35,891 nucleotides of DNA from Syntrophorhabdales bacterium. Its GTDB lineage: Bacteria > Desulfobacterota > Syntrophorhabdia > Syntrophorhabdales > WCHB1-27. The DNA lies in assembly GCA_035541455.1 (NCBI GenBank), contig DATKNH010000158.1:1-35891 (forward strand). The letters run 5' to 3'. How positions within the stretch are numbered: the stretch's first letter is position 1; each line of letters opens with the position of its first letter. Below are positions 31,615 through 35,891 of the stretch, piece by piece. A program made the translations under genes and the position numbers. The notes under the pieces are model-generated. The model did not search any database. It was given only the letters and a program-made list of their open reading frames with translations, and was not told the origin of the DNA.

Positions 31615-31734
31615 GAGTGTTAAGCGTTAGGCGTTGAGTGATAAGAAGAGCGGCGCCAAGTAACGGGCTCTTTGCTGTAGACGTGATCTCGGTGATTGGT
31701 GCTGTCCCCACTTGATGCCTGACGCTTAACGCTC
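31615..31734. repeat. Imperfect 18-base inverted repeat bracketing 84 bases
   Basis: GAGTGTTAAGCGTTAGGC (31615-31632) matches the reverse complement of GCCTGACGCTTAACGCTC (31717-31734) at 16 of 18 positions. The gap also contains a further TTGAGTG word (31634-31640). It lies between the amidohydrolase stop and the tctC ribosome-binding site. It shares TTGAGTGTTA with the repeat at 14773. Confidence 0.75.
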
Positions 31735-31767: not shown

Positions 31768-32766
31768 ATGAAAAGAGCCGGCAAGGTACAAGTGTTCGTG
31801 AGCCTGCTGCTTCTTGCTATGTCTGCTCTTTGTGCACCATCTGCAGTTTGTGCTGAATACCCCGACAAGCCTATTATGGCCTCGATTTCGTACGCAGCCG
31901 GCGGCAGTTCAGACATGAGTTTCCGCGCTCTCGCAGTCGGAGCCGAGAAATATCTGGGTCAACCCATCATCATGGACAACAAAGGCGGTGGAGGCGGGAC
32001 GCTTGCGCTTGCAAACGTCGCAAACGCAAAGCCTGACGGATACACGATCTGTCAGGCGGGGAGCACCGGCATCGTGCGGACCCCCCAGATACAGAAAGTG
32101 ACGTACAAGCCGCTGAAGAGCTTCACTCCCATTATGGCATACGTAGGTGCGCACAACTCCGGGCTTGTTGTGAAAACCGGTGCACCCTGGAAGACGTTGA
32201 AGGAGTTCCTTGACTATGCAAAGAAGAATCCGGGAAAAATAAAGTACGGTACGCCCGGCGTTGGTACTGCGCCTCACCATGCGATGGAGTACCTTGCTTA
32301 CAAAGAGGGCATAAAGTGGGTGCACGTGCCCTATACAGGCAGTGCGCCCGCGATGACCGCAGTGCTTGGCGGCCACCTCGATGCAGGTTCTGTCGGGCCT
32401 GAATGGGTGCCCTTTGCGCTTGCCGGAAGCTTGCGGGTCCTGGGCACGCACGAGTACAAACGCTCCGCCGCCTTCCCCGATATCCCAACGTTCAGGGAGC
32501 AGGGTTACGATTTTGTGAATGAGACTGTTTTTTCAATTTTCGGACCCGCCGGTCTTCCTCCGGACATCGTCACAAAGCTGGAGACCGCTTTCACGAAGGG
32601 CATGGAGACGCCGCAGTTTAAGTCTGTCTGCGAGAAGCTTAATCTGATCCCTGCGTATTACAACAGCAAGGATTACGACCGTCACCTGAAAGAGCTGTGG
32701 GTATCCCTGGAAAAGTCAATGAAAGAAACAGGCCTTATCAAAGAACCTGCCACCCAGCCGTACTGA
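31768..32766 (+). CDS. Tripartite tricarboxylate transporter substrate-binding protein (TctC/Bug family)
   Basis: A 332-residue periplasmic binding protein for organic acids. A signal peptide occupies about residues 1-29 (cleavage after PSAVCA). Family blocks follow: YPDKPI at the mature start, YAAGGSSD, QPIIMDNKGGGGG, AKPDGYT, YGTPGVGTAPH, VPYTGSAPAMTAVLGGH and FGPAGLPPD. The membrane partners TctA and TctB are not in the window, so this is a solo binding protein. GAACGAGGAGGG precedes the ATG. It follows the amidohydrolase gene after 166 bases. A decayed copy of its 3' end lies at 34868-35004. Confidence 0.93.
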   Translation: MKRAGKVQVFVSLLLLAMSALCAPSAVCAEYPDKPIMASISYAAGGSSDMSFRALAVGAEKYLGQPIIMDNKGGGGGTLALANVANAKPDGYTICQAGSTGIVRTPQIQKVTYKPLKSFTPIMAYVGAHNSGLVVKTGAPWKTLKEFLDYAKKNPGKIKYGTPGVGTAPHHAMEYLAYKEGIKWVHVPYTGSAPAMTAVLGGHLDAGSVGPEWVPFALAGSLRVLGTHEYKRSAAFPDIPTFREQGYDFVNETVFSIFGPAGLPPDIVTKLETAFTKGMETPQFKSVCEKLNLIPAYYNSKDYDRHLKELWVSLEKSMKETGLIKEPATQPY

Positions 32767-33519: not shown

Positions 33520-33594
33520 CAAATTGGGGACTGCCGGTTAATTTTAGGCAATTCGTTTATCATTCTCATGCTAACGCCTAAAGGAGGATATTCC

Positions 33595-34818
33595 ATGAAT
33601 CGCTTAGTGTCGTTCATTGCCGTCGTTGTGTCGGGTTTACTGCTGATCGCTTCTTCTGCCCTCGCTGCAAACACTATCAAGATAGGTGTCATCGATGCTT
33701 ACACCGGCGGCGCCGCTCCCATGTGCATTGATAACCTTAACGGATTCAAGATGGCAATCAACGAGGTCAATGCAAAAGGTGGAGTCCTCGGCGCGAAGAT
33801 CGAGTATGTTACGAGAGACGACAAGTTCAAACCTGATGTCTCTTTAGCGATGGCCAAAGAGCTCGTGATGAAGGAGAGGGTCGATATCCTGATCGGTACG
33901 ATCAGCAGCGCCGCAGCCCTCGCAGTCTCCGACTTTGCCAAGAAGGAGAAGATCCCATTTCTTTGCACAGGGGCCAAGAGTGATAAAATATCCGGTGAGC
34001 TCGGTCACCGGTACGTGTTCCAGATGGACGAAAATACGTCCATGCCCGGAAAAGCTATGGCGCAGGTACTTGCAAAGAAACCGTACACAAAGTATTGGAT
34101 TGCCGGCGACGATATGGAATATGGACACGCCATTACCGATGCCGTCTGGAATAATCTAAAAATCTTGAAGCCAGGCGTACAACTCCTTGGCCAAAGCTGG
34201 TGGAAGGTAGGGGAGACTGACTTTGGTCCGTACATAACCGCGATACTGGCTGCGAAGCCCGACTTCCTCATCATGGGCAATAGCGGTGCCAGTGTCATAG
34301 GTTTTCAGAAGGCAGCCAAAGCAACCGGCCTGAGCCAGGCCATACCGCTCTACCAGCACACCGCGATCGACCACACCATTCTGGTGCCAAACGGCATTGA
34401 CGGCCCCGAAGGCGTCTGGGGCACCGCGAACTATCTCTTCTACTATCCGCAAACCCCGGAGAACAAGGCGTTTGTCGCTGAATACCAGAAGAGCTACAAT
34501 AAGTACCCGACCCAGCCTTCGTTCTTTGGTTACGTGACGGGTCAGTTTATCGCAAAGGCCTACCAGAAGGCGGGGAGCACCGACAGGGAAAAATTCATCG
34601 ATGCGCTCGAAGGCATGGTCCTGGATACGAGCGCCGTAGGCAGGCTCGAGTTGCGGAAATGCGATCACCAGCTGATGTTGCCCACATTTGTCGGGGTTAC
34701 AAAAAAAGTGCCCGAGTACAAGGATTTCCTGATCGCCACGGATATTATCATGGTTACGGCTGCTGACGGCGTACCATCCTGCGCACAGGTTTTGAAGACA
34801 CGGAAGGCGCCGAAGTAA
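33595..34818 (+). CDS. ABC transporter substrate-binding protein, branched-chain amino acid type (LivK-like)
   Basis: A 407-residue periplasmic binding protein of the Peripla_BP_6 family, used for branched-chain amino acids, amides, urea or aromatic acids. Signal peptide about residues 1-25 (cleavage after SSALA). The mature chain begins NTIKIGVIDAYTGGAAPMC and has INEVNAKGGVLGAKIEYV and KELVMKERVDILIG, typical lobe-one blocks. No permease (LivH/M) or ATPase (LivG/F) follows, so it is another solo binding protein. AAAGGAGGAT sits 6 bases before the ATG. Substrate unknown; aromatic or hydroaromatic acids are plausible given the amidohydrolase nearby. Confidence 0.93.
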   Translation: MNRLVSFIAVVVSGLLLIASSALAANTIKIGVIDAYTGGAAPMCIDNLNGFKMAINEVNAKGGVLGAKIEYVTRDDKFKPDVSLAMAKELVMKERVDILIGTISSAAALAVSDFAKKEKIPFLCTGAKSDKISGELGHRYVFQMDENTSMPGKAMAQVLAKKPYTKYWIAGDDMEYGHAITDAVWNNLKILKPGVQLLGQSWWKVGETDFGPYITAILAAKPDFLIMGNSGASVIGFQKAAKATGLSQAIPLYQHTAIDHTILVPNGIDGPEGVWGTANYLFYYPQTPENKAFVAEYQKSYNKYPTQPSFFGYVTGQFIAKAYQKAGSTDREKFIDALEGMVLDTSAVGRLELRKCDHQLMLPTFVGVTKKVPEYKDFLIATDIIMVTAADGVPSCAQVLKTRKAPK

Positions 34819-34840: not shown

Positions 34841-34865
34841 GGGGGTCATTGCTCAGGTGGCCCCC
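34841..34865 (+). terminator. Hairpin after livK-like gene
   Basis: GGGGGTCA (34841-34848) pairs with TGGCCCCC (34858-34865), including one G-T pair, around a 9-base loop. There is no T-tract, so a strict intrinsic terminator is not proven. It directly abuts the tctC remnant. Confidence 0.45.
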
Positions 34866-34867
34866 CT

Positions 34868-35004
34868 TGGAGACGCGGTAGTTCAAGTCTTTCTGCGAGA
34901 AGCCTAATCTGACCCCTTCGCATTATAACGGCAAGATTACGACCGGCATCTGAAAGAACTGTGGGCTTCGCTGGAGAAATCGATGAAAGAGACAGGGCTC
35001 ATCA
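34868..35004 (+). pseudogene. Decayed 3' fragment of a tctC-like gene
   Basis: These 137 bases align to 32603-32740 inside the intact tctC gene with about 115 of 138 positions identical, by eye. The fragment has an in-frame TAG early on (Gln codon in the intact gene) and a one-base deletion near 34934. Similarity stops at ATCA (35004), where the intact gene goes on to its own end. The downstream half keeps nearly all its codons synonymous. It contains the ATG and ribosome-binding site of the following hydrolase. Confidence 0.85.
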
Positions 35005-35891
35005 TACTCAGGCACCGGAAGCTGTTATGCGTACTTGTTCTCAGCTTGCTGCTGTCCGGGGCACGGGCAGCTCTAGCTGAACAGTCCTATGATCCCCTGA
35101 CTGTCTCCGATCAGAGTAGATTCGAAACACTTGACTTTACGGTAAAGGACCGGGGACGTCAACGCGAGATCCCCATTCGTGTCTACCTCCCGTCGGTCAA
35201 GACGCCCGTACCGGTCGTGTTGTTCAGTCACGGGCTGGGAGGCTCGCGCACCGAGTGTGCGTACCTCGGCAGGCACTGGGCATCCCGTGGGTACGTGGCG
35301 GTCTTTCTCGATCATCGGGGCGGCCGCTCCTCAGACGAACCTGCGGTGCAGCGCATGACCCCAAAGAAGAACGTGGCGGTGGGCGAAAGCTTCCTGTCAC
35401 GGGTGAAAGACATCCCTGCCGTGCTTGACCAGCTCGAATACTGGAACACGTCCGACGGCCATGCGCTTAAGGGAATGTTGGACCTGAACCGGGTCGGTAT
35501 GTCGGGTCATTCACTAGGCGCAGCAACGACGCAGGCCGTGAGCGGTCAGGTTTTCTCACACGGCAGATTCTCGTACGCCGACTCACGCATTACGGCCGCT
35601 ATCGCGATGAGTCCCAGCAGCCCTAATCGTAACGGTAATACCAAAGAGGCATTCGGCAGCGTAAAAATCCCCTGGATGCTGATGACCGGAACGAAAGATG
35701 GCGACCTGAAGTCGCGGCTGGCTGTGTTTGCCGCGTTGCCTCCGGGAGGAAAGTATGAGCTGGTGCTGGACGGGGCCGAACACGGTGCGTTCACCGACCG
35801 CACCCCGCTCCGGGTGACCGGAAAACGCAAGCTCGACTACCATCAGGTCATCCTCTCGCTCAGCACGGCCTTCTGGGACGCCTGGCTGCGC
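34983..35891 (+). CDS. Secreted alpha/beta hydrolase, dienelactone/acetylhydrolase-like (3' end outside window)
   Basis: Open for 303 codons to the window edge without a stop. From ATG 34983 the product starts MKETGLIILRHRKLLCVLVL, a signal peptide likely cleaved after ARAALA. The mature part shows the oxyanion segment FSHGLGGS, the nucleophile elbow GMSGHSLGAAT, the aspartate in TGTKDGD and the histidine in GAEHGAF, so the catalytic triad is complete. The family resembles platelet-activating-factor acetylhydrolase/dienelactone hydrolases. GGAG lies 6 bases before the ATG, both inside the tctC remnant. The substrate is unknown; a later start cannot be excluded but none has a ribosome-binding site. 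Confidence 0.85.
   Translation, partial: MKETGLIILRHRKLLCVLVLSLLLSGARAALAEQSYDPLTVSDQSRFETLDFTVKDRGRQREIPIRVYLPSVKTPVPVVLFSHGLGGSRTECAYLGRHWASRGYVAVFLDHRGGRSSDEPAVQRMTPKKNVAVGESFLSRVKDIPAVLDQLEYWNTSDGHALKGMLDLNRVGMSGHSLGAATTQAVSGQVFSHGRFSYADSRITAAIAMSPSSPNRNGNTKEAFGSVKIPWMLMTGTKDGDLKSRLAVFAALPPGGKYELVLDGAEHGAFTDRTPLRVTGKRKLDYHQVILSLSTAFWDAWLR

Follow-up and report, generated by a model that had tools for sequence, protein, structure and literature searches.

Positions 34868-35004 of the window, which here means the complete contig C158 of 35,891 nucleotides (assembly of 3.9 Mb in 173 contigs), are the relic of a tctC copy that lies at the front of a gene for a predicted secreted hydrolase. 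The homology of this stretch to tctC, proposed in an earlier note on the same DNA, was confirmed. It appears probable that a horizontally acquired hydrolase gene became joined to the relic and that its translation would start at a former internal Met codon of TctC.

The 137 bases of the relic were aligned with 32603-32740, in the 3' region of the intact tctC gene. They matched at 115 of 138 positions (83.3%) with a single one-base deletion placed between 34934 and 34935, in agreement with the match of about 83 percent given in the earlier note. The edges of the alignment were sharp and homology ended abruptly on both sides. A search of the whole assembly returned the match with E = 1.3e-34; the runner-up, 74% over 72 bases, was located on another contig within another tctC paralogue. 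The intact source gene is still present at a distance of 2.3 kb and matches PF03401 with 233 bits (curated cut-off 27) over profile positions 2-261 of 274. The contig carries, in this order, genes for a Kdo-type kinase (minus strand), an amidohydrolase (plus) and TctC (plus), a small frame, livK (plus), the relic and the hydrolase gene (plus); the features are listed in Table 1. Examination of the gap between livK and the hydrolase gene revealed no forward promoter-like or terminator-like site; a GC-rich hairpin at 34841-34865 lacks a T run and is not notably stable as compared to shuffled sequences (z = -1.07), and Rfam gave no match.

Table 1. Features of the tctC relic, its source gene and the neighboring genes in the window
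Feature	Position	Strand	Basis or remark
Intact tctC, solute receptor of the tripartite tricarboxylate transporter family	31768..32766	+	PF03401, E 5.5e-69; closest relative of the relic
tctC stretch matched by the relic (within codons 279-325)	32603..32740	+	Alignment
livK-type branched-chain amino acid ABC substrate-binding protein, between tctC and the relic	33568..34818	+	PF13458, E 1.4e-77
Decayed 5' half of the relic	34868..34934	+	TAG stop, 7 amino-acid changes as compared to tctC
3' half of the relic upstream of the ATG, containing GGAG 34973-34976	34935..34982	+	Frame, alignment
Relic-derived start codon (putative) and first hydrolase codons (MKETGLI)	34983..35004	+	Alignment, translation
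Secreted alpha/beta-hydrolase (predicted)	34983..35891, off contig end	+	PF03403 and other alpha/beta-hydrolase models; joined frame

The window ends inside the hydrolase gene. Its last bases (35751-35891) overlap contig C71 (28947-29087) by exactly 141 identical bases, and the frame joined from both contigs encodes a complete hydrolase of 330 amino acids. Beyond this gene, C71 carries convergent genes which, named from their translations and not from profile searches, read as livF, livG, livM and livH together with a livK-type receptor gene. A single metagenome assembly with a contig end within the hydrolase gene might suggest that the similarity is an assembly artefact or arose by chance; this is highly improbable given the E value of the match, and exact words common to the relic and the intact tctC reach at most about 12 bases while contig overlaps comprise 141 bases, which makes misassembly through the repeat unlikely.

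The locus was compared with that of a single congeneric genome, the MAG of Syntrophobacterales bacterium Chersky.21_67 (JADGQN01, hereafter G001). The tctC orthologue of G001 is intact, encodes an 87% identical protein and adjoins the same amidohydrolase and kinase genes with two dehydrogenase genes between. At the place of these two genes, the gap between amidohydrolase gene and tctC in the window harbors an imperfect inverted repeat (31615-31734; 26-base arms, 81%). The hydrolase gene of G001 is located on a different contig from tctC and no tctC sequence precedes it; hence the junction is absent there, and the check in a related genome, which the earlier note had called for, came out in favor of a fusion. 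Two further observations were made in G001. Behind its tctC lies a convergent 71-base livF fragment (contig C407, L018:846-916) with 79% identity to livF of the window genome, another gene scrap at the corresponding place. Furthermore, a short frame ending DDDEEELKRITPGLEKLGKD (contig C148, L017:602-670) overlaps the front of the hydrolase frame and is possibly the end of a different gene. The source of this DNA ahead of the hydrolase gene was searched and none was found, so a parallel start capture in G001 gained no support.

The sequence bore out the earlier claim that the ATG at 34983 is the Met codon of the TctC sequence SMKETGLI and that the motif GGAG stems from the Leu-Glu codons CTG GAG; six bases separate the two. 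The hydrolase frame is closed on the 5' side by a TAA at 34926-34928, and no ATG, GTG or TTG occurs from there to 34983. Among these three codons only this ATG preserves the signal peptide of the hydrolase, the next in-frame TTG removing its charged front. The predicted N terminus reads MKETGLI-ILRHRKLLCVLVLSLLLSGARAALAEQSYDPL; judged by eye, it resembles a signal peptide, and its first seven residues are derived from TctC. Similarity to the best-matching hydrolases starts at about residue 8-9, right after the relic, and the start Met of four homologues of other phyla (L042, L043, L050, L059) corresponds to residues 6-10 of the window hydrolase. The junction therefore coincides roughly with the expected position of the native start, which was probably lost there. 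The ATG at 34983 is probably the translation start, although a non-standard start (CTG) within the relic is possible and the evidence comes from one assembly. In the G001 hydrolase, too, the aligned position holds no ATG, and the frame continues to an upstream TTG or ATG; since the start is displaced in this genome as well, the native start may have been lost before the junction formed.

The hydrolase belongs to the alpha/beta-hydrolase superfamily (PAF-AH/PETase-like), with scores of 41.3 bits for PF03403 (cut-off 20), 35.7 for PF02129 (23) and 28.6 for PF00561 (25.8). Its translation contains the nucleophile elbow GHSLG (G-x-S-x-G), and with the signal peptide-like N terminus it is predicted to be a secreted enzyme. 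Among the 46 genomes searched in the order, two carried the gene, namely the window genome and G001, and the other 44 did not. In a tree built with homologues from a pattern-limited scan, the hydrolase grouped with Kiritimatiellae (support 97/92) within a wider, less well supported group of Lentisphaeria, Verrucomicrobia and Riflebacteria; by phylum, its affinity is to proteins of Kiritimatiellota, Lentisphaerota and Verrucomicrobiota. Between the two species, dS was 0.59 for the hydrolase as compared to 1.33 for the amidohydrolase, 1.37 for livF, 1.45 for tctC, 1.56 for the kinase and 1.59 for livG. Occurrence, tree and dS thus mark the gene as foreign to the lineage. The tree together with the low dS relative to the five other genes points to a recent acquisition by horizontal transfer, which reads as an arrival after species separation in at least one of the two species. 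The mature part of the protein (dN 0.13, dS 0.59) is under purifying selection.

The two halves of the relic differ in the kind of change they carry. Ten substitutions as compared to the intact tctC precede the deletion, eight of which change the amino acid or create a stop; the 12 substitutions behind it affect 11 codons and are all synonymous except for one Val-to-Ala codon. The counts of the earlier note on either side of the deletion were correct. About 46 codons, broken by a TAG stop and a frameshift, are left, and they do not encode the PF03401 receptor domain. The TAG, seven amino-acid changes and the one-base deletion show that the 5' half is now non-coding.

The earlier note had further suggested a fusion that supplied GGAG and ATG, with the retained part under coding constraint. 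The fusion is supported by the hydrolase gene of G001 lacking a preceding tctC; the claim of constraint is not well supported. With the tctC of G001 used to polarize the changes, 6 of the 12 differences behind the deletion turned out to have arisen in the intact gene. The changes of the relic itself comprised eight nonsynonymous or stop changes and one synonymous change in the 5' half, and one nonsynonymous and three synonymous changes in the 3' half, plus two synonymous ones of ambiguous assignment (Fisher P = 0.05; P = 0.011 with ambiguous sites). Coding selection on the 3' half since the fusion is distinctly unlikely. The single nonsynonymous change as compared to eight in the 5' half (P = 0.013) and the last 31 bases, which carry no clear relic-specific change, speak for it; however, the branch of the intact gene accounts for half of the differences, and 48 of the 70 bases (34935-34982) precede the ATG and are not translated, so that no constraint as hydrolase code is expected there. 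Furthermore, amino-acid constraint would not raise synonymous divergence, yet this is higher in the 3' half: of the synonymous sites, 2 of 13 differ between relic and intact tctC before the deletion and 11 of 15 behind it (P = 0.003), a contrast that one copying event with later constraint would not predict. Evidence for coding constraint on the retained 3' half is accordingly weak; for its last 31 bases, comprising the ribosome-binding site and the first codons, constraint is possible (P = 0.04), but it loses significance when ambiguous sites are counted (P = 0.52).

The uneven synonymous divergence would be explained if the relic were a mosaic, with a recent 5' half from the tctC of its own genome and a 3' half from an older or third-species tctC, perhaps arriving together with the hydrolase gene; the one-base deletion would then be the seam. 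Changes in the 5' half are nearly all the relic's own, the intact gene having changed at one site only, and in the 3' half the relic, the intact tctC and the tctC of G001 are about equidistant. We regard a mosaic as unlikely, since the difference between the halves was tested post hoc on about 28 synonymous sites in all, and heterogeneity on the branch of the intact gene alone was not significant (P = 0.08).

Regarding the age of the relic, the best tree joined it to the intact tctC of the window genome, but a split at or before species separation was not rejected (AU P = 0.165). A closer outgroup was sought among 395 genomes of the phylum, and no such tctC was found outside the window genome at E 1e-125. 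Identity between relic and intact gene (83.3%) about equals that between the tctC genes of both species over the same stretch (82.6%), as would be expected if a full second tctC had once been located between livK and the hydrolase gene, already its downstream neighbor, and had been deleted down to its tail. The gene order fits as well: in G001 the convergent livF fragment comes after the intact tctC, and in the window genome an intact, convergent livF comes after the hydrolase gene. It may thus be ancestral for tctC and livF to face each other. Such a deletion is quite possible; it is opposed by the pairing of the relic with its own genome's tctC in the best tree, by the complete lack of tctC homology 5' of 34868 and by the hydrolase gene, which appears to be the later arrival.

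In the explanation that we prefer, the relic of a tctC copy would stem from either a partial duplication or the deletion of a second tctC, and the horizontally acquired hydrolase gene would have been joined to it near the site of its own start codon. Translation would begin at the former TctC Met codon, aided by the GGAG of the Leu-Glu codons. The TctC residues MKETGLI would extend the native signal peptide of the hydrolase at its front and, if the protein is expressed and secreted, would be removed with it upon export. If the start is used, the locus represents a snapshot of a horizontally acquired gene gaining its translation start from the debris of an amplified family; its value as a case lies in the intact source gene 2.3 kb away and in a congener with both parts unjoined. 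We give little credence to the broader notion of a newcomer enzyme switched on by a receptor-gene relic, whose Leu-Glu-Lys-Ser-Met codons serve as ribosome-binding site and start, with the tctC copies and relics of the genus acting as landing pads.

A limited literature search yielded no account of this locus or of a tctC expansion in this phylum. The kind of event, a gene remnant combined with start-site capture, is already known and does not constitute a new system. Partial gene duplication giving a chimeric N terminus is a known kind of event, and the relic resembles it in that a truncated copy of a nearby gene continues in frame into a different open frame; unlike in such chimeras, it contributes only seven residues, which lie inside a predicted cleavable signal peptide. 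Promoter-capture rearrangements are known in bacteria, among them the promoter capture deletions in E. coli (PMC5526668). There, too, a gene gains expression signals by joining pre-existing upstream sequence, whereas here the interior of a coding sequence would provide the ribosome-binding site and start codon as well as the first residues, and no promoter was found. In the window genome, 50 matches to PF03401 exceed the Pfam cut-off; places similar to the window TctC number 44 and 54 in the two congeneric genomes, and 2 and 0 in the other two of the family. Expansions of TctC/Bug receptors have been described chiefly in beta-proteobacteria and in some alpha-proteobacteria (PMC5812351). Very many tctC paralogues per genome, the raw material for remnants, are common to those expansions and the present case, and a large tctC family may make such relics common; in contrast to them, the genus studied here is recorded as Syntrophobacterales.
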